Positions 3,901 through 61,590 of a stretch of 64,000 nucleotides of DNA are shown in pieces. Each line of letters begins with the position of its first letter. Position 1 is the first letter of the stretch. The notes under the pieces were generated by a model, which saw only the letters and a program-made list of their open reading frames with translations, was not told where the DNA came from and did not search any database. The DNA comes from Isoperla grammatica (Eukaryota; Arthropoda; Insecta; Plecoptera; Perlodidae), in contig OX246743.1 in assembly GCA_945910005.1 (NCBI GenBank), positions 8,246,673-8,310,672 on the forward strand. Reading direction: 5' to 3'. The position numbers were made by a program, and so were the translations under genes.

Positions 3901-4609
3901 GGCTACATCATCAGATTGGATTTGCATCATGAAAAGACTAAATAATCATTTATTACGTATCTCACAACAATGTACCACATACTGTATATTAATACTTTTT
4001 ACCACTTTTGACCAGGTAAGAGGAAAGGAATATATCTACAACATAATATATAGCTACTAATAATTAATTCTTATCATAATCTGAATAATCCTAATGAAGC
4101 TTATTGTGTTGACAGAATTGAATATGGCTTTTGTTGTGACACAACTATTAATTTCATTGAAATGTGAAACCATAGCCTACTATGGTAGTATTCAAAGTAG
4201 ACAATAGGGGCACATAATATTATATAACTACAGGAAGTATAGAAGTATAGCTTATAGCAGACTATGTAAATGACTCTAGATCGCAAAGCTGGAACAACGA
4301 TCAACGATGTCCTACGCTTCATGCATCGCAAAATTACGCTTACTGTAGCATTACAGCATTAGGTAGAAACTAAGAACGAAAATGACAATTAAGTTGTGTA
4401 TGTTGGGTGTACGTATCACCTTGAGACTACATTCAACTATCGTACACATGTTCATGCACCTCAGTTACACCCGTAATCAACCGTAGTCTACTTATTTTGT
4501 CTACACAAGATGCCTAGAACTAAACATTAAACCAAATTACTCTGTCAAATGTATAGTTAGGCATTTTGGTATCATTAGAACTTAGAAGGGTTTAAAACGC
4601 TTGGCTTAC
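977..4609. other. Intergenic stretch without recognisable genes
   Basis: No conserved coding segment was recognised on either strand; open frames are short and unlike known families. The stretch holds several long homopolymer tracts (poly-C near 1230 and 1471-1485, poly-G near 3326 and 3558) and AT-rich unique sequence. Part of it should be intron of the syntrophin gene, whose next exons lie to the left on the - strand. Confidence 0.5.
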
Positions 4610-5099
4610 CCTCAAGCTCCACCACTTTTCCAGCGCGTTTCAACGCTTTGACAGCTTCATCGTGCGTTGCATCCCGGAGATCTTCTCCATTAACCGACAG
4701 TATGGCATCACCAACGTAAAGTTGTTCCGTTTGGTCCGCTGCCATACCTTTGAAAATCTTTGATATAAGAATTGGCATTTTATTTTCTTTACCCCCCTTA
4801 ATCGATATACCTAAACCATTGTTGTCCGATTTCACTACTCGCACTAGTCTCTTCTGATTGGCTACTGACTCTGGTACATCCACAGCATCCATCAAGCCAG
4901 TACCTGTATCTACATTGTTGTTGTTGTTGTTATTGTTGTTTAATGTGCCATTTAATGTGGTAGTGTTCTCATAGCTTTCATCCAAACTAATACTTAAGTA
5001 ATCGTCTTCTAATGAGACAAATACTCTGTACCACTGTCCACGTACGTGTGTCTCTAGCACACCGGAGCGGCCGTAGCCAACCCCTGCCATCTCAACCAT
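4610..5099 (-). CDS. SNTB1: Syntrophin, beta-1 type, first coding exon (partial gene)
   Basis: Encodes the N-terminus of a syntrophin, the adaptor that binds dystrophin/utrophin and recruits channels and signalling proteins through its PDZ domain at the membrane. Residues 11-40 look like the first half of the split PH1 domain (GVLE...[18 protein letters not shown]). Residues 54-62 are nine asparagines from an AAC/AAT run. Residues 84-163 are nearly all of a PDZ domain: RLVRVVK, the ligand loop [38 protein letters not shown] and the [14 protein letters not shown] helix. As I recall the paralogues, the wording is closest to vertebrate beta-1 syntrophin, but an invertebrate pro-orthologue of alpha/beta forms is equally possible. 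The exon ends at 4610 before GTAAGC, just after VVELE, one base into a codon. Remaining exons (PH1 second half, PH2, SU) must lie off the left edge. Confidence 0.9.
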
Positions 5100-5509
5100 T
5101 GTTGAATGTATTGTTGTCTATCTACTGTGTTGATAAAGTAACTATCATACTTGCTGTCAACAATAGAGTTCACCTGTTGACTACTTCCCTTGGCGCAGCC
5201 ACGTACGTGCGATGTTCCAACTGTAGGTCTATTATATATAAAAAATTAACGGTTTATTTCCGAACAATCACAGTTACGGTTCGTTTAGGCTAAGTTAGCC
5301 TAGGTTCTTCATGTTGACATTCACAAATAACCACTTTCCCCTGGAAATTATCCACACGGCACACGAAAAGGGCCGACTGCACACACTGATAAATACACCA
5401 TTCAGACTTATCGGCACGGTGTTGTAAAAATATAATTGAACACTCGTATTTTATTAAACAATGTATTATAAATTAAGAATAAACACTTGTACGAACACTT
5501 TTAGACCGC

Positions 5510-12778: not shown

Positions 12779-15700
12779 CTGGAATATGAGATTACCAGTG
12801 TTATATGGGGTGGAATGGATAATCGTAAAACAAGCCGCAACCAAGACTCATAACTATGTCTACCACTTGCGAGAGAGTACAAAATATCTGTAGATCACTG
12901 ACAAGAGTTGTTTACTGCCCAAACATTAGCTATGAAATGATTGCTTATTAAGATTTAAAAAAAAAATCATTCATTTATTAGTACAGGCACATTAAAAATA
13001 GGTGTTAAATCAAAACTCTTGCATTTTTAACTTAAAAAGTAGTATCTACTTTTTTCTTCACCTTTGAAAACCAGCTTGAGAGGTTTTCTTGGACAGGACG
13101 GAATTTGAAGTTAATTAAAACCAGTAGCATTGAAATGTTGCCACAAAAAGGAAATAAACCATACACTGTTACCAAACGATCGCCTAATTCCACCGTACAA
13201 TATGTCAACTTACCGACAGCGTCGACGCCCAGTTTCTTCAACATCTGCAACTCTGCAACGGTTTCAAAGTTGGGGCCTCCGACGCAGGTGTAGACGCCCT
13301 CTCTTAGAATGTCGCTGATGCCCATCTTCTCCGCGATAGACTTGCATAGCTGCCTCAGCTGGCAGTCGTACGCCATGTTCATTGGCAGGAAGCGTGGACC
13401 GAACCTGTGCAGGAAGTACTTTATTTCATTTTTTATACAGTTTACTTGTGTAAAAATTCACTCACGAAAGATTTTCTTGAATAAAGATGTATTTGAATTA
13501 CGTATTTACTTGTTTCTATTTTCATATTTTGTAGAGCATAACTTGTTAAATGTATCTTGTATGACTAAAAAGAATTAAATTATTATAGATTTATTTCGAA
13601 CATATTATGTTTATTTTTATAATCTGCTATGTGTCAGCGTCCACTAAATCTACACAAGTAGGACACAGGTCTTGCCAAATAAGGTCATTTATTGAGATCC
13701 AAAAACCATTATAGATCCCACTCTATAACCAAACATGTGTTATCTTAAAATCTATCTTGTCATGATAATGTAAAATAACTTCAAGTAGATAAGATTGCAA
13801 AAATGAGAAAACGATGCATTGTTATTTTGGCTTTTTGTACCATTGGTTTGATGGATGGATCTATTCATTTCTTTTCCTCAATGATTCTCCCATTTCAATA
13901 ACATGTGATTTTTACCATAAATGGTTGCACCGACTACACTTGGGGATTCGACTAGCCTACACCAGGGGATTTAATGGATCACTGCTTTAGTTTGTCTAGG
14001 TAGCCTAATAGAACTGACCTGCCATCATTGGTTCGACTAGCCTACACCAGGGGATTTAATGGATCACTGCTTTAGTTTGTCTAGGTAATAGAACTGACCT
14101 GCCATCATTGGTTCGACTAGCCTACACCAGGGGATTTAATGGATCACTGCTTTAGTTTGTCTTGGTAATAGAACTGACTTGCCATCATTGGTTCGACTAG
14201 CCTACACCAGGGGATATAATGGAATAGAACTGACCTGCCATCATTGGTTCGACTAGCCTACACCAGGGGATTTAATGGATCACTGCTTTAGTTTGTCCAG
14301 CTAATAGAACTGACCTGCCATCATTGGTTCGACTAGCCTACACCAGGGTATTTAATGGATCACTGCTTTAGTTTGTCTAGCTAATAGAACTGTCCTGCTA
14401 TCATTGGTTCGACTATCCTACACCAGGGGATTTAATGGATCACTGCTTTAGTTTGTCCAGCTAATAGAACTGACCTGCCATCATTGGTTCGACTAGCCTA
14501 CACCAGGGGACTTAATGGATCACTGCTTTAGTTTGTCTAGGTAATAGAACTGACCTGCCATCATTGGTTCGACTAGCCTACACCAGGGGACTTAATGGAT
14601 CACTGCTTTAGTTTGTCTAAGAAATAGAACTGACCTGCCATCATTGGCGCCCTGGAGAGGGTTGTTGCCTGCGAACCCCATGAGATTGATGTGATCCTTG
14701 ATGATCATGATGTCGCCCGTCCTATAGTCTTCGTTGAGTCCGCCCGCGGCATTGGTCACGATCACATGTGTGACCCCCACCAAGTGCATCACTCGCACTG
14801 GCATGGAGCACTGTAACAACATAGTGCACATCATGTAGGAATGTTCTTCATTTCAGGCCAACAACTACCAATTTAAATTCACTATTTTCAATATAATTTA
14901 TTGTGATTCTGTTAGAAGTGTTCATTGAAAGAAAGTAAGTTATACATAGATAGTTTAGTACACAAATACAAACTTTGTTTACCTGATGCAAGGTTTTAAC
15001 TTATTTTTTGGCTTTTGCTGACAAACATACATATTATTATGCTGACTCTCACGACTAGCAAAATAATAATGATAATTTGAAACGAATTAATAGTTATTGT
15101 GTGTCTTAAATGCACATCACTTTTGCTTTAATTTATTTTTTGCCACCAGAATGTATGTCTGTTCCTAGTTGGGTAATGTTTTTCTTTTGTGGGCAGCCCT
15201 TTTCAAAAAAGCATGTAAGTATAACATTAATTCCAACTTACCTTCCAAAGAGGATATCCCTCGTATGAGTGGAAGCGACCCTGCATACACATGACTTGTA
15301 CTCCGTTCAGACAGCCAAACAGCAGCTGACCCGCGTGGCCAGGGACAGTCGATGTGGGGAAGTGGGGGATGGTCGAGTAGGGGTAGCATGTCTTGTCGGT
15401 CAAACTCTCGGCCAGGGATCCTGGGTAAACATTCATTTAAATAATTAAATATAATTTTAAAAAAAATAATGAAAAAACAAAAACAGGACATTAATTATTT
15501 CATTTACATTAGGGGATGATTTTTCATTTTAATCATACTTCTATTTACTGTCCTTGTAAATCAGTTCTATAACTGATTACGATAGACATTGAATAAATAA
15601 AATATATAAAGAAACCCACCCATAAAAAAGCCCTGAAACACGCACACACATAGCCTACTCGCGCACACTAAAAACTATTGCAAAACAATCGACTAAAGTT

Positions 15701-37377: not shown

Positions 37378-37653
37378 CTACTTTCGTTTGCTGGCCTTTT
37401 CCGCAAGTTTTTCCGCCTTTCTTTGAAGTCTTTCTTTCTCCTTGCGATCCTTCTCTAGCTGCCGCTTCTCCTTCTCCACTTGAACTTTTAACTCTTTCAG
37501 TTTCCTCTTTAGTCTGTTCTTGTCGTCTCCGTTGATCCCCAGTGTTTTGAAGTCTCGAGACTCGAGCTGCAGCAACGAAGATCCGCCGATCTGAAGCTCC
37601 AAGAACCTTGGTATGTGTTGTTCTAGCCCCAGGGCTAACAACCACTGGCAAAC
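37378..37653 (-). CDS. PPP1R9A: Neurabin last exon: SAM domain and tail
   Basis: VCQWLLALGLEQHIPRFLE, LLQLESRDFKTLGI and KNRLKRKLKELK complete the SAM domain; the Lys/Glu-rich coiled tail ends SKRK-stop. Acceptor TTTATTGCAG. Confidence 0.92.
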   Translation of the reverse strand, partial: VCQWLLALGLEQHIPRFLELQIGGSSLLQLESRDFKTLGINGDDKNRLKRKLKELKVQVEKEKRQLEKDRKEKERLQRKAEKLAEKASKRK

Positions 37654-40600
37654 CTGCAATAAAGGCATACAACTTCGATTACAAATAACACTTGATAAAG
37701 TAATCTATGGCTACAGTAGCAGTAGGACTACTGGCTACTATAATTAGTGCCAATCGGCATTATCACAAAATAAAATTCACGATAATATTGCTGCCAATAT
37801 TGCTTTGAAATTTAACAACATTGAAATTTGGGATTATAACATTGAAAAACTAAATCATACATCCAAAAGACATATTTCCGAATATTTTCAATAAATCAGT
37901 TAGGTAAATGACTGACCTGTTCTTTGGACCAGTCCGTGACGGGAGCAGTTTGCCAGACGTGAGACCCCTTCTTCTCCGCAGGTGCCCAGATCTCCTGAGA
38001 GTCCCCTAGCCGACTGGGACTGGGGTCCAGGGAGGCCCCTGGAGATATACTACCGGAGGACATGGAAGAAGGGGACGGGGGACCCATATCCCTCATCGGG
38101 GACCCTTGGGGCAGCCACGGTTGGGTCCCCGGCGACAGAGACTGACTGAGTGGCACTTTCTTCACTGTAACAAGGACGGGACAAACGATGTTAACACACA
38201 CTCGACTTAGGAGAGTTTGCGAGCGAGCCTTCTCGAAGACAAATTTCCGCGTTCCAATTTTCAGCAACCGTGTCAGGAAGTTAACAACACTATCTAACAA
38301 ACAAACACAACACACTCACAACTTGTAGGAATGATTGTAGTTATCCAAATTTCAGTTCCAATTCATTTCTTGCAATTGGTCAATTACAAAAGTCATCAAT
38401 CTGCTTGAAGTTATATATCATGGCTGCGCGGTGGAACTAGTCGCAATAATATTGGAATATGACTGTAACGCTGACTTGCTGGAGGAAAGGTAATCTACTG
38501 TGAATCATGAACATGGTCTAAGGATTACTACAACACATGCTTTGTCCATGTAAGGAAGTAAATGTTAGAACAATTGTAAGAAAGGTTGCTCTTTACGGTG
38601 GTCCAGTCAGGGGTCGAAATACTCCTTCGTTAGGGAGGCTAAATTACAATGTTAAATTACTAAAATCTTCCTCGAAACTCAAATCTGTTTTAGAAGTCTA
38701 GTTCCTATAAACTCCACACAAAAACCAGTGCATAAATGTTTATTGTATGCACGCACATGCTTGCGCAGTGTTGAAATACACAGTGCAAAGAAGCTTGAAT
38801 GAGATGCATGCAGTCAGTGCCAAGTTGTGTTAGTCTAGCTGCAGATGAGCAAAGCAAGCTCCGTAAGACCTAAAACATGAACAAACACATGATATTCCTA
38901 CAGTACAGTGATAACCCTGTTCGGACCTGGGACAGAGTAGGCCCACGAGTAGCTCTGCCTGTTGTACGAGGCAACTGAAGATCAACGTCATATGACCTTT
39001 CCGTTGAATACGAGGTTAAACTTAAGAATATTTCCTAGTTTATCTAAAAGTCAAAATCACCACATGCACCTACAAAGAAATGCAAAAAAAAAAACAAAAA
39101 AAAAAACGACAAAACAAGATTGCAACGGAAACGCACTCCACTACGGCACTACACTCCTCGTGACTCGTCGAAGCTACGTGAGTCGATTACCTCTTGCGTT
39201 GGCCTCATTGACGGCCTGACGAATCTCCTCGACTAAAGTCTGCGAGACCCCCTTGTTGAGTTCCGTGAAGTCTCCAGACCCTTCTCTCGAACTGTCCCCG
39301 CTCGATATCCGCCTCTCTCTCTCGGCCAGCACTTGCTTCAGCTGCTCCGCCAACGAAGGCGGTGGGCCCTGTAGGCCGCGCTGAGCGCCTGTTGCAGACA
39401 ACGGAAACCCTGTTGATTGAGAAGCTCTGCTTGCCACCCCAACCAACAACCGACTACGTCTATACCAGCGGTCGGCAGACTTCTTCAACACTGTCCCAAT
39501 CCTAGAAAACTTTCCGTCCCAACACCCGTAACCCCTTCCCCCTTCCAACATTTATCGCCTTCGATGAAAGAACAAGTATTGTTCTGTGCTTTAAAGATAG
39601 TGTTTTAAAATAATACGATTTGTGCAACAACTTTTTTAAAACATTTTTAAAGAAAGTAATTCTGTTGGTGTCCCAAATGAAAATCTCCATTGTCCCAAGT
39701 TTGGAACGCGACCCAGACTTTGAAAACCGCTGATCTTACACATGATTTCCTTTTCTTCCTTTCCCCTCCTTTATATTTTTTGATTTCGGGTAAAATTGAT
39801 GCACTGGGCATAGAAATGATCTAAATTTAAATTATGTTGTTTTTTTTACTCGAAAACCGGGTAGTGTTTTTTGGCCATCGAGTCAACTACTAATTACTCG
39901 AATCAAATTGTTGGGTACTCGTACACCACTAATTTAAAAAAATACCTTTCTTATGACTTTTCATGAACGAACAAATGTAGAAATAATATTTAAAGCTTTA
40001 GGATTCTTTTGAACGATGAAAAGTAATTCATATAGATGGTTGAAGAATAAGGATTCAGCAACCACATCCCCTAAACAAAGCTGTTAGTTTTAATTAGATT
40101 ATGCAAATCCAATTTATTCCATGCAATTGTTCAGTCGTCGGAGACGTCTTCATGGATATATGTACAATCACCCAAGAGCCTTGGTCCAATATCACAATGA
40201 TTAAGCCAGCAAGCAAGACTCCCAAGCAAGCAAAGACCAACAACTAGAAACTAGCATCTTTGATAACTGCTGACAGACACAAACTGGGCTTGTAGTGTAG
40301 TAATTCGGTAGTAATGTCTTAAGTACGTAGTAATGTAACACACATCTGGAATTAAATTACTTTATCTGTAATGGCTATGTATGTAACAATTTACAACCCT
40401 ATAATAAGTGGTAATTTCTCTTCATGCAAACATCTTAGTTATTATTTAATATTTGTGCACATACAGTGGAGCCTTGATTATACGTTTTCCAAGGGCCAAA
40501 CCGAAAAAAACGTATAAGTACAAAAAACGAATAACTACAATTACATTTGTTTTCATTTGTAATGAGTGGAGATTCCGAGATAGTGACTCTCGGCAGTCTC

Positions 40601-49600: not shown

Positions 49601-52600
49601 ATCTTTAACTCTCATCGGAAGACCTTGACTGTTTTCATGTTAATGATCTTTCTGATATGCTGACAGTGAATCGGAACGAATTTCAATGAATGTCGGCAGG
49701 AACATATGTCGGAACGAAAGACTTCTTTATGATTGGAATGTAAATCCATGTACGCGTTTGTCATGCGTCTATATAGTTTTCTTTTCACTTAATATGTCAG
49801 GCAGAACATCAAGATAATTACTGTAAAAAGTTGAGTGTTCACCTGAAATATGTCGAACGGTGATACATATTTAAGGCTGTCGTTATTTCTTTACGCTATG
49901 TTTTTATTTTAAGGTTTTTTTAACTTGTCGTGAACACAGCTCGTTGGGCCATCCCATTTCACACACCAACATTTAGAAATTTGTCGCGAAATGAACTTGT
50001 TGATTAAATGCCCTTCTGTGAACAGCTATAGCAAAACCTTTTGTAACTTCAAAATGAACTAAGTAAAAACTTATTTATATTCATTAAATTCCTTCTCTCT
50101 TCTATTATAGTCATGTAGTTGCACGATTGTACAGTATATCCTGCAGAAGATGCCTTCCAGCCTAGCTCTTTACGGACACGATAAGCGTACTTAACGAATC
50201 AAGACAAGTAGCAACAAGTGCACTACTCTGTATTGTCCTGTCAGGTTCTTGTAGAACCGGTTAAGATTATCTTGGGTTGAGGAGAATGTCTTTGGTCCCA
50301 ATTAAAAAGTACAGTAGGGCCTACTCTGCATAAAAATGTTTGAATTTGTTAAAGTCAACAAATCTTTCATAAATCCTATAATTTTTAAAAACTAACGTAC
50401 GAAAGCCAACGAAAAGTTGAAATTGAACATCAAGATTGAAGACAATACATTTACCCGCTACTGGGAATTACGAAGGCGATAATAGAACCATGTCAATGAC
50501 TAGGCCTAAATAACGTCAAAAATGTTTCACCGTTGGTGCTAACTGCCCCAGACCCTGTTCTTCCGCTCCGATTTTCTACTAAAAATTGCTCATCTCTTAA
50601 AAGGCTTCCTATAGGGCTTAGGATTATTTATTATCAGTTAACTAAAATGTCTTCTCCAGGATATACTGTACTCCTCATTTGGCCCTACCAACGGCGATTT
50701 TAGAATGAATTACATTAATAACATACTTGAAACTATTAAAACACACAACTGTTGTCTCAATCAATCTACTTGTCACGAAAGTAGTATCGAGTAATCATCA
50801 ATAAACATGATTTGATAAATTAGCTGGAATGTAGAACAACAATCGACTTACCCCTGCCGATTGTAGTACGGGGTCCACTCGCTAATATCTTGCAACGTGG
50901 TTTGTACTAGTCACGCACACTAGCAGTGAACTAGGCGCGTACTAATCTAACTACTCGTACAGAGTGAGAGGAAACTGTTTCACTATTGACTCTCTAACTA
51001 CCAAAAACCAGTTCATCTACCTTGTTGTAGTCGCTAACTATCTGTTAAAGGTACGGAGGTCTTTCAATATTTTATCTGGTCGTATCCATTTACTATCGTA
51101 TAGTACTATCGTACTATCGTTGGTCACACTAGAGAAAAACAGGATGCACATGTATATATATTGGGCTGAAACTCCAAGTAACATTCACGTGTTAGCGAAT
51201 TTATTCCCGAGCATCAAGGGACCACAGGCACACTACCTATACAGCTTGGATTCTCATTTTTGTATTTGTATAATACAAATAGACATTTTTGAAGCCAAGT
51301 CTATCTTCAAATTACCTACTTATTTTTGCTTAAATGCATGATGATGCAAGCTGATAGTCCAGAGGTATAAAATACCCTAATGCATGTAGGATGATATGCC
51401 AATCATAATAATCATAATTAATTAATTAATTATTATTTTGTTTTGATTTAGTTTTTTCAGCGTGATGATATTTAGTTTGTTCTCGACATTTTGCTGCCCA
51501 CGTTGACATCGGAATGTCAAGTACGAACTCGATCATTGTTCACGGGCATGATCAAATCACCCAAATACAAACACCAACACATCTAGCATCCAAAGCTTAG
51601 AATTATGACTACACGTTTCGTTAGCCTTAGAATACGATTGTCTCCAAAATGTCCGCTGTGTGGCGTATTTAAATGCCGATAGCATGACCGAAACACAGTT
51701 CTAGTTCCCTGTATTGCAGGTAAGTGCAAGTACGTAGTTGCAATTTTCAAGGTGTTGTGTGCCTATTGGAAAATCTAATCCATGCGATTTTCTACGGTGA
51801 ACTTACAAACATTGAAGTCACGATGTTCACTTTTATTAAGGTCAGTAGAAAAAAAAATACAGACATAAAACACATGCAAACTGTGCTTATATTATAATGC
51901 AATACTGTAGTAGAGATTATGTTTTAAACGACGAGTCCACCCAAAACGAGACTACCCTGATATTGTTAGATCAACTCGCGTGATACGTTACCAACTTTTT
52001 CCAATGCTGTCGTTCGTAAAGAATCGGGAGTTTTCTAATTGACTGTCCTAGATTTACAATAACTTGTTCATCACTTGGTCCAAATGCTTTCCGTTAAAAG
52101 GACGGCACATTCCACAATCCCCAATTATTCCCTGCGTACGACCTCCGACAGAAACAGGACTAAGTCTGTAACGTAACACGCACGCACACCACCTCCCAAC
52201 CGACCAATCACAATCTTCCACCCGTAAAGTCCTCACTCTGGACGCACCTTTCTCTCGACAGTTGCGGTCTTATCTCCGTCGTCGGGACTGATGTCCGATA
52301 TCTCCGTGTCCGAGAGTTCCGTCTCCAACGACTGTAATAGAGGCTTCACCGGTGGGGCCTGCTGCCTCCGCGTTAGCTGCGGTGTTAGCTGACGGAGGTT
52401 GGAGCTGTCGTACGGAAGGACGGCAGGTAAACCCGCCTTTCGCTGCGTCTCAAGAAGCTCCTGTTCCAGTTGGATTACCTGCAAAGACATTGGCAAGTTA
52501 ATCCCCTGAACATTGGAGTGAAAACACTAGCAATGATATCGATATCGTGCATACATGGAGGTTAATTTCGGTATCAATAGAGTCCCATCATATCGAAAAT

Positions 52601-55600: not shown

Positions 55601-58600
55601 TACAACACAAACAGTCATTCGCACAAAACATGCGTTTCTCTTTAGGGAGATTGTTGAGATCGTCTCATGTACCGTACCGTATGGGAAATGCCAGTCAAAA
55701 GAATAGAAAAACATAGGGATTGCTCGACTTTGCATTCGGTTTCACTCCTATTTGTAGTGTATTTTTAACCCATATATACTACTATCTGTTTCTTTTTTAG
55801 GTTAACAAGTTACAAGCCAAATTGTTCCTCCATTTCATGACACTACAAGTGTACTTCAGGGGGAAATATGAAAAATACAGAGATTTTAAGTTGCCATATT
55901 AGAGAACATAACACAGCAAAACCTCGATTATCAGAGAATCTGTGTTACCAGAGATTGATTCAGCCACGATTCCCCCCAGCAACATGAATGTGTTACGTGT
56001 TCACGACATTGCGAGTCATGACTGGGAAATGCCAGGATGGCGATTGTCCCGCATGTATTTTAAGACGGCAGTGAATAGAGGCCGGACGTTAGGAGGGGAG
56101 TACACTGAGCCATGCAGCAATGTACGGAGTAGCAGTTCATCGAGCGAGACTCCAGATGTGTGGCATATTTCACTACCCTCTTTGTCTGTTTAATGTCTTC
56201 AATCCCACACTACACTAATAAAACTTAAAACTAATCAAAATCTTTTTTCAACGTTTTTTAGTAATACATTATCGACAAAATCCGAATCATCACGTGTTAT
56301 CAGAGCTGGCATCCGTCACAACTAGCTCAGATAATCGGGGTTCTCCTGTATCACACCAAACACTACTTACTATTTATGTTGGGTTCAATATGATGCAAAA
56401 AACAGTTCAGGGGGTAACGACAATAGCAATAAATCAGACAGAAAGAATTATATTCCTCGTAATATTTAGAGGAATAACTCTTCTTCGAGGTCGTTTAATC
56501 ATTTCCCAGTTTCGGACGTGACTCGGCTCAGACATATATTCAAGGGTGTTAATCGTTACAGACTCTATCTTCACAGTTTCGGACGTGTTCGCTCACACAT
56601 AGCAATAATTCCTCCTCCTGGAAACCACCGTCGAAGAAACGTCGTCTTCCAAGATCCTTACCCTGTCCTTGAGCGACTTGACCAGCGCGTTGTATTCCGT
56701 GTCCTTCTCCTGCAACAGCTGGAGGTAGAACTCTTCCCGGTGGAGCATGTCCTGTTCAACCGGAGAGACGCAACATTAGCGGTTTCATTGAAATTGGTAA
56801 TATTACCGACCATGGTAATTAACGGTTTTTTCTCCGATTTGCTATTACAAGGTCAATGGATAATCTATTTGCATTCCTATACTATTAAATGTTTATTACA
56901 TTACTACTAGTAGGCCTATAAAGTATAGGCTTACTCCTACATAATAAATATAGATTGTAAAAACATGAAGAATTGAAGCATGAAAACTGAATTGTATTGA
57001 AAGTGACGTTTAATGCCGACATTACACGACTCAATACTTTCGTCAAACTTATTGAATTCAAGAACAAAAGCGAATCCAAAACAGTTTGGTAAAAACTGCA
57101 ACGATAGAGCTTCTATTAATTGATGCTTTTTTGTCCTTGAATTCAAAAAGTTTGACGAAAGTATTGAACCGTGTAATGTGGGTATTATGGACAGGACCAT
57201 TTAAACAAAATATGACGTACAATCTTTTGGGTTGGTTGCTTAAGGGAGGACACAGCAATGGGAGCGTATCTCGTCTACCTGTTCGCGTTGTTGGAACTCT
57301 CTCAGCAGCTTCTTGGCCTTGCAGTACTTCTTCTCGAGCACGATGTACTGGCCCTGCGACTGCTCCAACATGTCTTGGTAGTTGGCCACGTCCTTCTTAG
57401 CGGCGTAGAAGTTGCGTTCCGTCTCGCGCAGCTTCATCGACGACTGTCTCAGCCGCTCGATGTATTCCTCGTTGTCAGGCGCCGAGCCCTCGAGGTCGGT
57501 GAGCTGGGGGGGGACATACACTCGGTTACACAAGCACATTTCATGGTGAGCTGTCGGGACGTGGACCAAGGTCATACACTCGGTTACACAAAGTACGGAG
57601 GGCATGTTTGATGTAAACATCTCCTGAACTGTGGGGACAAAGAAAAAGCTCCACACTCGGTTACACAATATAAGGGGGGGCACATTTCATGGTGACCTGT
57701 CGGGACGTGTGCCAAGATCATACACTAGGTTACACAAAGTACGGAGGGCATGTTTGATGTAAATATCTCCTGAACTGTGGGGACAAAGAAGAAGCTCCAC
57801 ACTCAGTTCACAGTTCTCAGTAGTAGCGACACGAAAACGGAAAAAGAGAGTATATTTGAAGAATGTCTTTCATGAATGATTGATTAATATTGTTATACAT
57901 GAACAAATGTTATAGGCCTACATGATTAGGGTTATTTAAATGTATAGGATGTGGTATCTGTGCACAAATAATTGAGTAAGTCAACAAGTTCTGTCCTAAT
58001 GAAGGATGATATGATACAAAAAGTGTTTTATGAGTGACGATGATCACTTTCAATAGATTTATTAATGCCAGATTATATGGGGATACGAGGCTAAGTTTTT
58101 AGTCTAGCCTCCCTATTTAGTTTTAGATTTCATATAGACACTTTTATCTAACACGCTGAAAGTGACAGCCGTCCAGCTACCCACAAGACTATCACAACTT
58201 GTGGGTATCACATATTGTATTGCATCACATATTGTTACTATCGTAACTTGCTTCACCATCTTATGACAAAAAGCATTGCATGCAGTTATTTATGAGCGGC
58301 AGGTAGGCCTACTATTTGACAGCAGCAGAGCAATGTGGTTAGGAAATAAATGAAAATAAAACCTAGAATTAATTCTCACCCTAGCTTTCAGCCTGGAAAT
58401 GTCACCATCTGCAAGAGCAAGTTTCATGTGACTCTGTAAAATGAAACCAAGGAAACCAAATTGTAAAATCATAAATAATAAATCATACACAATATAAATT
58501 ATAAAATAATATAACCAAATAGTTTAATAACTGTCAAAACAAAGTAAAACAATATATGTACCTAGTTAGGTTATGAAAGTAGGTGCCAATCGGCTGGAAT

Positions 58601-61538
58601 GGTATATTAAGTGAGGAAAGGATCCAACAGCTTACCTTCGTGTAGTAAGATGACGGATTTGCGAGTTTGAAGTACACATAAAGACATAATACAAAATATA
58701 ACGAGACGTTTCGACCGAGGTCTTGCTCACTCGAGAGAAGAATGGCTACTGCAACTACTCTAGTCAACTAAACAACTATAATAGACTAGACTAAAATATA
58801 TATATATATATGTACAATATTTACAAGGCGCCTTACAAGGCGCCTTCAGACGCCGCCCGAACATTGCGGACCTAGTGGTCAGGAGAGACTGCCGCATCAG
58901 GGACGCTCCTGAAAATGAACCAGCAGGTTCCTACCCTTGCCAAGGAGGTAACGGTTGCTTGACGTGCCCAATTCATCAACCTTCCACCACGTTCAGTGCC
59001 CAGGCCACCGGCAAGACATACCCAATAAGGCAACACAACACCTGCCAAACCACCAATGTAGTCTACCAACTGAACTGCAACCACTGCCCTGCCGAATATG
59101 TTGGCCTAACTAAGAACTCGCTTAGGTCACGGATGAACGGGCACAGGCAAGACACAAAAAACCTGACCATGGACAAACCGGTGGCTCAACATGCGGCATC
59201 CCATAACCTGGCATTCAATGGATGTTACAACACCAGAGTGATAAAATCACTCCCAGCCAGCTGCAACCCAGGCGAACTAAGACGGTGGGAGTTGGCCCAC
59301 CAGTGGATCACTAAATCTAGGTTGGCTCCCAACCTAAACATCCGTTAGTGATAGCCCTCTCCCCCTCTCACCTCCCTGCCACCACACCCCCCAACAGCGC
59401 CTTGTAAATATTGTACATATATATATATATATTTTAGTCTAGTCTATTATAGTTGTTTAGTTGACTAGAGTAGTTGCAGTAGCCATTCTTCTCTCGAGTG
59501 AGCAAGACCTCGGTCGAAACGTCTCGTTATATTTTGTATTATGTCTTTATGTGTACTTCAAACTCGCAAATCCGTCATCTTACTACACGAAGGTAAGCTG
59601 TTGGATCCTTTCCTCACTTAATATACTATGTACCTAGTTACATACTTAAAAGTATTATTCAAATGTAATATTTAATTGAACACAAAACTGTAATTCAAAA
59701 TCTGTTCAAACTATTGTGCCTAACCCAGTGAGTGAAAAAAATTGAATTAAAATCATAAAAATTGCATGTAGGGCATACAATATGGATTTTATTCAGGCCT
59801 AGAACTCAAAATTGAAAAATGTAAAAAAAAAACTTAACACTTAGCGTGCGGCCGGCGTAATATTACGTCGCGCGATGTCGTGCCAGGTTGGCGGGCGGCG
59901 TAATATTACGTCGGGCATATATCAAACCTTCTAGTGACTGCCGACGTTTTTCTACGCCGCTCGGATTTTGCGAGAACATTGGTACTGTTGTTTACCGTCA
60001 GATGCCATAGGTAGCCGCTTTTATTGCCTGTTGGCGCCAAAATTTCTAGATGTTTGCGTGAATAGTGCGAATGGCTTCTAGTAGGCGTTTTATTATTTTA
60101 TTGTTATTATTTTATTATTATTATCGGTACAGAGTGAAAATGTTCTAGCTTCAAAATAAATCAATAAAAAAAATTTTAAAAAAACATTTTTTAATTTTTT
60201 TTTTTTTTTATTTTTCAAAATTCCAAAATAGTCACTTTTTACAAAATTTATGCCTTATTCAGAGGAAAAAAAAAAAAAAAAAAAAAAAAAAAATCGTTTT
60301 GAAGATCAAGAGTCAAGCTTTTTTTTAGGTACAACTCCCACATACATAACTTCGATACTTCCTTCGGTACAATATCGAGAAAAGTGGCAAAAACCCCCAG
60401 CACCAGGGGAAGGACCTGCCTAAAACGTCCAGCACCCAAAGTGTTAAAGAAAAGTTATAAAAAAAACCAGAAACAAAATCTTATTCCCAAAATGTAATTC
60501 AAATTTTTGTTTTTATAACAAATCTAGAATTTAATAAATATTGTCCCCCCCCCCCCCCCCCAAAAAAAGAAAATTTTGGGGAAAAAATCAATAAATTTGT
60601 AATGAATGTGAAAAAGGAAAATGATGTCTGAATGTGTTGAGAACGCACCTCCTGCAAGAGCTGCCTTAGAGACTCGAGATCGTTGGCTGTGTTGGTGGGC
60701 TCCATCTCGAAGGCGTGGTCCGAGGGTCCGGGGGGGCTGAGGGGGGCCTCGGAGGAGGACGAGGTAGTGGGGGAGGTGCCCGTCAGGGGTAGCGTGGTGC
60801 TGCTGTCTTCCGAGCGCTGCCCGTCGGGTGACGATATGCCTCCCGGGTCCAGGTGGTGGTAGCCTAGGGACAACAGACACACTTTAGACAAGGCTGAGGT
60901 AGTGGGGGAGGTGCCCGTCAGGGGTAGAGTGGTGCTGCTGTCTTCCGAGCGCTGCCCGTCGGGTGACGATATGCCTCCTGGGTCCAGGTGGTGGTAGCCT
61001 AGAGACAACAGACACACTTTAGACAAGGCTGAGGTAGTGGGGGAGGTGCCCGTCAGGGGTAGAGTGGTGCTGCTGTCTTCCGAGCGCTGCCCGTCGGGTG
61101 ACGATATGCCTCCTGGGTCCAGGTGGTGGTAGCCTAGGGACAACAGACACACTTTAGACAAGGCTGAGGTAGTGGGGGAGGTGCCCGTCAGGGGTAGCGT
61201 GGTGCTGCTGTCTTCCGAGCGCTGCCCGTCGGGTGACGATATGCCTCCTGGGTCCAGGTGGTGGTAGCCTAGGGACAACAGACACACTTTAGACAAGGCT
61301 GAGGTAGTGGGGGAGGTGCCCGTCAGGGGTAGAGTGGTGCTGCTTTCTTCCGAGCGCTGCCCGTCGGGTGACGATATGCCTCCTGGGTCCAGGTGGTGGT
61401 AGCCTAGGGACAACAGACACACTTTAGACAAGGCTGAGGTAGTGGGGGAGGTGCCCGTCAGGGGTAGCGTGGTGCTGCTGTCTTCCGAGCGCTGCCCGTC
61501 GGGTGACGATATGCCACCTGGGTCCAGGTGGTGATAAC
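37378..61538 (-). CDS. PPP1R9A: Neurabin (PP1-regulatory actin scaffold), C-terminal ten exons, partial gene
   Basis: Exons (from 5'): 60649-61538, 58380-58433, 57279-57503, 56662-56751, 52248-52478, 44701-44859, 43349-43775, 39191-39388, 37917-38164, 37378-37653. They join in phase to 931 residues plus stop. Neurabins bind F-actin and protein phosphatase 1 and organise synaptic or junctional signalling. Visible here: a Ser/Pro-rich repeat block; coiled coil (RLRQSSMKLRETERNFYAAK, EKKYCKAKKLLREFQQRE, FYLQLLQEKDTEYNALVKSL); the ELSDTEISDISP acidic segment and TATVERK; LLDVSASKAKAEL; LAEQLKQVLAERERRIS and LVEEIRQAVNEANAR; then a SAM domain (WSKEQVCQWLLALGLEQHI) and a Lys/Glu-rich coiled tail. 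The SAM domain marks neurabin rather than spinophilin. Actin-, PP1-binding and PDZ parts must lie beyond the right edge. Confidence 0.9.
37917..38164 (-). CDS. PPP1R9A: Neurabin penultimate exon
   Basis: Ser/Pro-rich linker (SPSSMSSGSISPGASLDPSP) then GSHVWQTAPVTDWSKEQ, the beginning of the SAM domain. Acceptor CCTTGTTACAG, donor CAG|GTCAGT. Confidence 0.88.
39191..39388 (-). CDS. PPP1R9A: Neurabin exon with LAEQLKQVLAERERR
   Basis: Strongly neurabin-like helix pair: LAEQLKQVLAERERRIS...FTELN...LVEEIRQAVNEANAR. Acceptor TGCAACAG, donor GTAATC; phases match both neighbours. Confidence 0.9.
39466..39732. mobile_element. hAT-type MITE (CAGCGGT termini)
   Basis: Left end CAGCGGTCGGCAGACTT; right end GACCCAGACTTTGAAAACCGCTG, the usual Charlie/Zaphod-style hAT terminus. 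~267 bp, non-coding. Possible degenerate 8-bp target copies (GTCTATAC / ATCTTACA). Lies 77 bases from the preceding neurabin exon. Confidence 0.5.
39840..39935. mobile_element. Fragment resembling the CGAGT hAT end
   Basis: ACTACTAATTACTCGAATC...GGGTACTCGTACACCACTA resembles the right terminus of the element at 62,457-63,590 (ACTCGCACAGCCCTA). Confidence 0.3.
41669..42568 (+). mobile_element. hAT element with captured BED-finger exon (copy 1, 900 bp)
   Basis: Termini TAGGGATGTGCGAACC and GGTTCGCACAACCCTA, with an exact 8-bp target duplication ATAATCGA (41,661-68 and 42,569-76). Subterminal GGTTCGGTTCGA repeats. Inside, 42,324-42,413 encodes a BED-type zinc finger (ECNHCKRNF ... LIRHLMRKH), followed by a donor-like ACAG|TGAGT/CA|GTGAGT at ~42,426. 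This suggests the first exon of a hAT transposase without the catalytic part. A perfect 40-bp palindrome lies at 42,204-42,243. Confidence 0.85.
42204..42243. repeat. Perfect 40-bp palindrome inside the hAT element
   Basis: Arms CATTGGGTTTGAAATATAGG and its exact complement, centre AGGCCT; also perfect in the second copy (61,825-61,864). Confidence 0.95.
43349..43775 (-). CDS. PPP1R9A: Neurabin exon, His/Pro/Gln-rich linker
   Basis: Begins DYGLDGSIENSADEEEQDRR, HLFIEYAGQEDS, then a low-complexity His/Pro-rich stretch (HPHHPPQPSP). Acceptor CTGTTGTAG, donor GTAAGT one base into a codon that the next exon completes. Confidence 0.85.
44529..44676. repeat. Two-copy ~84-bp tandem duplication beside a neurabin donor
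   Basis: ATGCACACAGCTGCACTAG...GTGTAATATCGCA occurs twice; the second copy ends 24 bases before the exon at 44,701. Confidence 0.85.
44701..44859 (-). CDS. PPP1R9A: Neurabin exon LLDVSASKAKAEL
   Basis: MPVKEELDRAVPPHELLDV, SKAKAELATRGGLAGRQLP; 53 codons in phase 0. Acceptor GGTATTGTAG, donor GTAAGT. Confidence 0.85.
44860..48155. other. Neurabin intron, unique and repeat-tail sequence
   Basis: No coding similarity recognised. At 46,799-46,842 CAAATAAATTGAATTGAATT looks like the (TTGAA)n 3' tail of a non-LTR retrotransposon. At ~46,231 CAGTGAAACCTTGTTATTTT resembles a single pogo-type terminus. Confidence 0.4.
48156..49052. mobile_element. hAT element with AAGTTCA subterminal repeats
   Basis: Termini CATACTTGGGAAGTTCA and the mirror ATTCCCCAAGTTTG, with an exact 8-bp target duplication GTTACAAC (48,148-155 and 49,053-060). 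Many AAGTTCA/TGAACTT words at both ends. 897 bp; no transposase recognised. In a neurabin intron. Confidence 0.85.
49061..52247. other. Neurabin intron, no further features seen
   Basis: AT-rich sequence; short open frames lack recognisable similarity. Confidence 0.4.
52248..52478 (-). CDS. PPP1R9A: Neurabin exon with acidic ELSDTEISDISP segment
   Basis: VIQLEQELLETQRKAGLPAV, LRQLTPQLTRR, ELSDTEISDISPDDG and TATVERK; 77 codons. Acceptor TTTGCAG, donor AAG|GTGCGT. Confidence 0.9.
52661..52951. repeat. Near-perfect 129-bp inverted repeat with hammerhead-like cores
   Basis: Arms 52,661-52,789 and 52,823-52,951 mirror each other with a few mismatches around a 33-base T-rich loop. Each arm carries CTGATGATGACAGC / GCTGTCGAAAT, i.e. 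CUGAUGA - helix II (GACAGC/GCUGUC, loop AGAGCA) - GAAA. This arrangement resembles paired inverted terminal repeats of a Penelope-like element with the body missing. Confidence 0.8.
52952..55913. other. Neurabin intron
   Basis: AT-rich, with an (AAAT)n run at about 54,003-54,058. No coding similarity recognised. Confidence 0.4.
55914..56348. mobile_element. pogo/Tigger-like MITE
   Basis: Left end CAGCAAAACCTCGATTATCA, right end GATAATCGGGGTTCTCCTG followed by TA; the ends are mirror images with a few mismatches. 435 bp, no coding content. Confidence 0.6.
56662..56751 (-). CDS. PPP1R9A: Neurabin coiled-coil exon
   Basis: DMLHREEFYLQLLQEKDTEY then NALVKSLKDR, one of the best-conserved neurabin/spinophilin coiled-coil pieces. 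Donor AGG|GTAAGG. Confidence 0.92.
57011..57187. mobile_element. MITE, family A (copy 2)
   Basis: Same size and sequence plan as 6,720-6,896 (termini TAATGCC... and ...GTGTAATGTGGGTATTA). In a neurabin intron. Confidence 0.8.
57279..57503 (-). CDS. PPP1R9A: Neurabin coiled-coil exon
   Basis: 75 codons: LTDLEGSAPDNEEYIERLRQ through QYIVLEKKYCKAKKLLREF to QQREQ; long heptad-rich coiled coil. Acceptor CCCCCCCCAG, donor CAG|GTAGAC. Confidence 0.9.
57535..57826. repeat. Two-copy ~146-bp tandem duplication
   Basis: CACATTTCATGGTGA...GGGACAAAGAA(A/G)AAGCTCC occurs twice with several mismatches; includes GGTTACACAA sub-repeats. Begins 32 bases outside the 57,279-57,503 exon. Confidence 0.85.
58380..58433 (-). 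CDS. PPP1R9A: Neurabin mini-exon
   Basis: 18 codons, SHMKLALADGDISRLKAR, extending the coiled coil. Acceptor ATTTTACAG, donor AGG|GTGAGA; in phase 0 with both neighbours. Confidence 0.8.
58569..59626. mobile_element. Penelope-like element reduced to its GIY-YIG end between inverted arms
   Basis: Inverted arms 58,603-58,832 and 59,397-59,625 (about 230 bp, nearly identical) enclose a ~560-bp centre coding for a GIY-YIG domain. A 14-bp direct repeat TATGTACCTAGTTA flanks the whole (58,555-568 and 59,627-640), a good target-duplication candidate. The arms contain AGACCTCGGTCGAAACGTC, a motif like the GAAA side of Penelope hammerheads. The reverse transcriptase is absent. Confidence 0.8.
58833..59348 (+). 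CDS. GIY-YIG endonuclease domain of a Penelope-like element (3' fragment)
   Basis: The frame reads FRRRPNIADLVVRRD, PCQGGNGCLTCP (Cys pair typical of the linker), TGKTYPIRQHNTCQTTNVVY, then QLNCNHCPAEYVGLTKNSLR and MNGHR, ending at a stop at 59,348. VVYQL...EYVGLT plus SLRSRMNGHR is the GIY-YIG core of Penelope-family proteins, which nick target DNA for retrotransposition. The reverse transcriptase that should precede it is missing, so the fragment cannot act alone. Confidence 0.85.
   Translation, partial: LQGAFRRRPNIADLVVRRDCRIRDAPENEPAGSYPCQGGNGCLTCPIHQPSTTFSAQATGKTYPIRQHNTCQTTNVVYQLNCNHCPAEYVGLTKNSLRSRMNGHRQDTKNLTMDKPVAQHAASHNLAFNGCYNTRVIKSLPASCNPGELRRWELAHQWITKSRLAPNLNIR
59641..60648. 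other. Neurabin intron with A-rich tracts
   Basis: Low-complexity A/T runs (about 60,264-60,292) and a poly-C at 60,545-60,560. A GTAATATTACGTCG word is repeated at 59,857 and 59,900. No coding similarity. Confidence 0.4.
60649..61538 (-). CDS. PPP1R9A: Neurabin exon built of six 45-residue repeats
   Basis: 890 bases, open throughout, acceptor CTTACATCCAG at the 5' side and donor GAG|GTGCGT at the 3' side. It encodes six copies of GYHHLDPGGISSPDGQRSE then STTLPLTGTSPTTS. Successive copies are joined by ALSKVCLLSL, which is derived from the intron tail. A unique part follows: APLSPPGPSDHAFEMEP and NDLESLRQLLQE, the start of the coiled coil. Each internal unit contains a further acceptor-like TTGTCCCTAG, so shorter in-frame isoforms are possible. 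Confidence 0.8.
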
Positions 61539-61567
61539 CTGGATGTAAGGGAAAACAGACACACTTT
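60893..61567. repeat. 135-bp minisatellite carrying a 3' splice site
   Basis: Unit starts at 60,893, 61,028, 61,163, 61,298 and 61,433, an exact 135-base period with only one or two substitutions per unit. Each unit holds GCCTTGTCTAAAGTGTGTCT (intron tail), TTGTCCCTAG (acceptor) and ~100 bases of exon. Confidence 0.95.
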
Positions 61568-61590
61568 AGACAAGGCCGAGGACATTATAC

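Follow-up and report, generated by a model that had tools for sequence, protein, structure and literature searches.

We analysed a window of 64,000 nucleotides from Isoperla grammatica (Plecoptera; assembly GCA_945910005.1, contig OX246743.1, positions 8,246,673 to 8,310,672 of the forward strand); all positions below are those of this window. On its minus strand, an exon of a neurabin-like gene carries six tandem 135-bp copies of a segment that joins the end of the preceding intron to the first part of the exon. We give an even chance to the reading that this array is a coding minisatellite, seeded by a duplication across the neurabin intron-exon junction and translated at least partly as 45-residue repeats.

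A six-copy array across an intron-exon junction

Tandem Repeats Finder (TRF) placed the array at 60761-61581 on the minus strand, with a period of 135, 6.0 copies, 96% matches and a score of 1502, which is not a chance result. In the direction of the gene, the unit is composed of 104 nt of exon, GYHHLDPGGISSPDGQRSEDSSTTLPLTGTSPTTS, and of 31 nt derived from the intron tail (ALSKVCLLSL), which end with a TAG acceptor. An initial annotation of the sequence had proposed six tandem copies of a unit made of an intron end and the first ~100 bases of the exon, and our analysis agrees with it on these points. Its interval, 60649..61567, corresponds roughly to the exon together with some of the intron tail, and not to the repeat itself, which starts 112 bases inward from 60649, the final base of the exon. 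The SKVCLLSL linker that it described is present, although in five linkers rather than six, copy 1 being preceded by the intron itself. The elements of the array are as follows, with boundaries read from the letters unless another source is given.

60761..61581, minus strand: six-copy 135-bp tandem array of intron end plus exon start (TRF)
61539..61581, minus strand: intron tail of copy 1, from which the linkers derive; 43 nt that begin with CCTCG and end at the CAG acceptor (direct reading)
61435..61538, minus strand: exon part of copy 1, acceptor CAG/GTTATC; longest possible exon, from 61538 (890 nt) (letters and pyrimidine tract)
61404..61434, minus strand: linker 1, intron-derived 31 nt with candidate branch point, pyrimidine tract and TAG acceptor
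61300..61403, minus strand: exon part of copy 2, GAC to GAA (D to E)
61269..61299, minus strand: linker 2 and acceptor
61165..61268, minus strand: exon part of copy 3
61134..61164, minus strand: linker 3 and acceptor
61030..61133, minus strand: exon part of copy 4
60999..61029, minus strand: linker 4 and acceptor, TCC to TCT, silent in frame
60895..60998, minus strand: exon part of copy 5
60864..60894, minus strand: linker 5 and acceptor
60760..60863, minus strand: exon part of copy 6; shortest possible exon, from 60863 (215 nt) (aligns with the related protein P0023)
60649..60759, minus strand: single-copy remainder of the exon, SSSEAPLSPP...LRQLLQE, up to the donor GAG/GTGCGT (GT at 60648-60647) (letters; similarity to P0023 stops here)

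As had been noted, 135 is a multiple of three and the unit has no in-frame stop: across two units the repeated frame contains 0 stops, and each of the five remaining frames contains 2 to 8. Three features of a coding minisatellite, namely tandem units of tens of bases or more, a length that is a multiple of three and openness in the frame of the gene, are found in the array. A DNA-level search of the 874-Mb assembly, in which counts are lower bounds and distant paralogues lie beyond reach, returned a single candidate, at this locus.

Direct reading gave six candidate exon starts at intervals of 135 nt (61538, 61403, 61268, 61133, 60998, and 60863), which, with one common donor at 60648, define possible exons of 890, 755, 620, 485, 350, and 215 nt. 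All six lengths leave a remainder of 2 after division by three; the six acceptors are thus in one phase, as the initial annotation had suggested, and the frame is identical whichever acceptor is used. A candidate branch point, a pyrimidine tract, and an AG are present in every copy, and the TCTAA located ~21 nt before the exon is presumably the branch point. The pyrimidine fraction between −20 and −3 is highest at acceptor 1 (0.83), and is 0.67 at the others.

Differences between the copies

Eight columns vary among the six copies, seven in the exon part and one in linker 4, the latter being framed by direct reading. Every one of these changes falls at codon position 3 and seven of the eight are silent, the eighth exchanging D for E. 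Under random change, the probability of at most one amino-acid change in eight would be 0.0008 to 0.0023, depending on the weight given to transitions. A 105-bp array located ~40 kb away was scored as a control, with 1 of its 15 units left out as divergent or indel-bearing. In this array, 9 of 19 variants were at position 3 and 5 of 19 were silent, and the two arrays differed in both respects (Fisher p = 0.011 for position 3 and 0.0056 for silent changes). One unit of the control array is spaced 1 nt shorter (104), and no such unit occurs in the neurabin array. These results suggest that the copies are, or were, translated.

The comparison of copy 1 with copy 6 bears on the case in which copy 1 is free and only copy 6 is constrained. 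All five differences between them are silent (P = 0.015 to 0.025 in that case), as are all four when the junction codon is excluded (P = 0.035 to 0.052). These differences lean towards copy 1 being coding, and not further.

The control array lies upstream of the observed neurabin exons; TRF placed it at L005:9113-9900, its open frame continues to about L006:908, and its differences look neutral.

Origin of the array and proposed mechanism

The inferred breakpoints in the intron (61581) and in the exon (60764) both read CCTCG, and this short homology plausibly fits a one-step tandem duplication as the first step. Counted from CCTCG through the AG, the intron tail of copy 1 is 43 nt long, with TTTTCCCTTACATCCAG (CAG) at its end, whereas the corresponding stretch within the copies is 7 nt shorter and ends with TTGTCCCTAG (TAG). 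If the linkers had retained these 7 nt, the resulting period of 142 would put the sequence past the linker out of frame; because they are 7 nt shorter, the period is 135, which holds the frame, and the array is therefore readable.

The initial annotation had called for a comparison with the orthologous exon, and this comparison strengthened its reading, which our analysis supports in part. The one relative of the exon that was found, P0023 (95 residues, named "hypothetical protein" by JGI), contains one copy followed by a similar tail, with 62% identity over 77 residues, and the similarity stops at the donor. P0023 was compared as a protein, and further copies could lie higher in its intron. 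Its single copy indicates that the array is probably derived and the single-copy exon ancestral, one relative not being proof of direction. A scan of viral contigs with P0023 gave 42 stretches that fit a pattern, none of which encodes a relative.

In the mechanism that we propose, a tandem duplication across the intron-exon junction, mediated by the CCTCG homology, would have come first, and each copy would have carried along the last stretch of the intron, including the candidate branch point TCTAA, the pyrimidine tract, and the AG. In at least some transcripts, the spliceosome would choose acceptor 1, the one with the richest pyrimidine tract, producing a 45-residue repeat rich in Ser, Thr, and Pro with intron-derived SALSKVCLLSL linkers. 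With the later acceptors, the isoforms would become shorter but stay in frame, the sixth acceptor giving the exon that is probably ancestral. The protein would then carry one to six copies of the Ser/Thr/Pro-rich segment ahead of a coiled coil and, because every choice is in phase, copy number and acceptor choice would be free to change without breaking the coiled coil downstream.

A more specific proposal, which we consider tentative and rather doubtful, is that the array acts as a mutable ladder of splice acceptors, in which each unit serves both as a repeat of the protein and as a full acceptor cassette, and that selection has kept the six in phase after the 7-nt change had set the period to 135. 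If this were true, each unit gained or lost would change the longest form of a synaptic scaffold protein, in steps of 45 residues, and with it the number of its in-frame isoforms. Should more than one acceptor be in use, the array would offer a natural experiment on spliceosomal choice among competing, nearly identical 3' splice sites placed at 135-nt steps, and also a case of intron sequence made into protein through repetition. If the last acceptor alone is used, the array would be intronic and would show how far a gene can cope with multiplied acceptors.

Alternative explanations

The alternative that best withstands the evidence, a serious one that we place short of an even chance, is that the array is nearly always removed as intron. 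The acceptor at 60863 would be used, the protein would be unchanged, copies 1 to 5 would be spacer, and the open frame and common phase would simply follow from the copying of a 135-bp unit out of coding sequence. The one-copy exon of P0023 is consistent with a short product being sufficient. The exon starting at acceptor 6, at 215 nt, has an ordinary length, and exon definition could favour it. Moreover, the 105-bp array also has long open frames (296 and 272 codons) with no sign of coding constraint, and an open frame alone is thus weak evidence of coding.

Exon size also counts against the coding minisatellite, as do several other observations. Eight events are few, and the last copy, coding regardless, may be where five of them occurred. 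Of the eight differences, three distinguish copy 1 from the other five copies, two are found in copy 6 only, and about three, D to E among them, fall within copies 2 to 5. A single control array was scored, and it was picked for being open. The phase agreement covers the acceptors and the common donor. With regard to the origin, the present junctions within the copies are CCTCA, which differs by one base from the two inferred breakpoints, and the 7-nt difference may be a loss in the copies or a gain in copy 1, either state being possibly ancestral. Finally, a protein query with the full-length 297-residue exon yielded 57 candidates, none of them at E ≤ 10.

What removal of the array as intron explains less well is that all differences between copies 1 and 6 are silent (with copy 1 unconstrained, P = 0.015 to 0.052), that the bias towards the third position is complete (8/8), and that the richest pyrimidine tract is at acceptor 1.

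It is improbable, in our estimation, that splicing uses donor-like sites in the array, turning parts of it into new introns or joining a unit directly to the next exon. Each linker has one such site, AAA/GTGTGT, which matches 7 of 9 consensus positions, as many as the real donor, and whose phase 0 fits the exon at 57503. It is however out of phase with the acceptors of the array: splicing to its own acceptor would remove an intron of 19 nt, which is below the splicing size limit, and splicing to a later copy would break the frame, while splicing to 57503 would lose the exon remainder that is retained in P0023. Another site, CAG/GTGGCA (61517; 6/9, phase 1), would join any later acceptor in frame, but it is confined to copy 1 and would leave an exon of 21 nt. 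There is a precedent in a potato RdRp gene, in which an intron end was duplicated along with the start of the exon (PMC4974935). Minor products may arise from the donor-like sites of the array.

An assembly artefact, with a wrong copy number or an array made by the assembler, is very unlikely given that the copies differ at eight columns and that the array occupies less than 1 kb within a 48-Mb contig, although the copy number could be off by one or two.

Relation to known systems

Human introns have reportedly arisen from tandem arrays, in which direct repeats are said to supply splice sites and alternative splicing (Zhuo et al., 2007). Those arrays reportedly give both ends of new introns, whereas the neurabin array multiplies mainly acceptors.

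The closest parallel for the junction is the potato gene PGSC0003DMG402000361, which encodes an RdRp and in which the 3' end of an intron and the 5' end of an exon are duplicated in tandem (PMC4974935). As in the neurabin array, the duplicated piece contains a branch site, a pyrimidine tract, an AG, and the first part of the exon. In potato, one duplication together with a cryptic donor gave a new intron that was seen in RNA reads, as described there. The neurabin array differs in having six copies, donor-like sites that are weak or ill-phased, and a period that keeps the frame, so that its intron-derived part could become protein.

As coding repeats, the copies resemble those of MUC7, for which subexonic repeats with a 69-bp unit and copy-number variation are reported (PMC4997351). 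In both cases, copies with a unit that is a multiple of three and rich in Pro, Thr, and Ser lie in a coding exon. The MUC7 repeat is described as lying within the exon, while the neurabin array crosses the junction and has an acceptor in each copy (PMC4997351). A six-copy array that multiplies acceptors and holds the frame combines two known kinds of event, junction duplication and coding repeat. In the open-access literature, searched by titles and starts of abstracts, no six-copy acceptor-carrying repeat was found in neurabin or elsewhere, which does not prove that none has been reported.

The host gene and other features of the window

The downstream exons and domain that bear on the identity of the gene are the following.

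57282..57503 (end approximate), minus strand: coiled-coil exon with a phase-0 start, LTDLEGSAPDNEEY (acceptor CCCCCCCCAG/CTCACC; match to P0008)
52245..52478, minus strand: neurabin exon, VIQLEQELLETQRKAG... (relatives with up to 94% identity)
37381..37704, minus strand: SAM-domain open frame, the bounds being those of the frame and not of an exon (PF00536, 2.1e-07; PF07647, 6e-07)

For the exon at 52245-52478, 22 of 23 candidates matched at E ≤ 0.001. Among these candidates, JGI names P0003 to P0005 neurabin and P0015 and P0016 hypothetical, the others being without a name. The coiled-coil exon at 57282..57503 is presumably the next one after the array exon, and a scan for exons between 60648 and 57503 gave two weak overlapping candidates. 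From its order and strand, the SAM frame probably belongs to the same gene, and a C-terminal SAM domain is typical of neurabin-I. The name neurabin, already proposed by the initial annotation, therefore appears to be a good label, on account of the named relatives of the downstream exon, the coiled-coil exon, and the SAM domain. Neurabin and spinophilin carry a PP1-binding motif and a PDZ domain upstream; a vertebrate query for these gave no match in the part of the flank that was searched. Long open frames further upstream resemble the neurabin N-terminus, to which they may correspond.

A Pfam search of the two coil exons returned no family. With the repeat as query, DUF7737 (33.3 bits, cut-off 27) and US10 (29.2, cut-off 27) were above the whole-protein cut-off and DUF3439 was below it; the matches were short, no stretch passed alone, and we took all three as effects of composition and repetition. 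Solved structures compared with a coiled-coil exon gave only CD59 and serpin chains at E values of 0.11 or worse, which were taken as chance. A search of the genome for the bindin family had no match, a result that carries no information, as none of the 14 control genomes had one either.

A second tandem duplication was observed in the same gene at 57512-57808, with two 129-nt copies that are 94% alike at a spacing of 146 bp. A 22-nt motif occurs in it in four places, of which 57512-57533 is the closest to the exon at 57503, and the duplication stops shortly before the pyrimidine tract of this exon.

Elsewhere in the window, minus-strand open frames of other genes at 4578-5117 and 13035-13457 encode a PDZ domain (PF00595), in a frame that we take to be syntrophin-like, and a piece of the phosphorylase superfamily (PF01048), respectively. 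An 80-bp minisatellite with several copies and mixed higher-order periods (56, 136, and 216) lies at 13947-14647.

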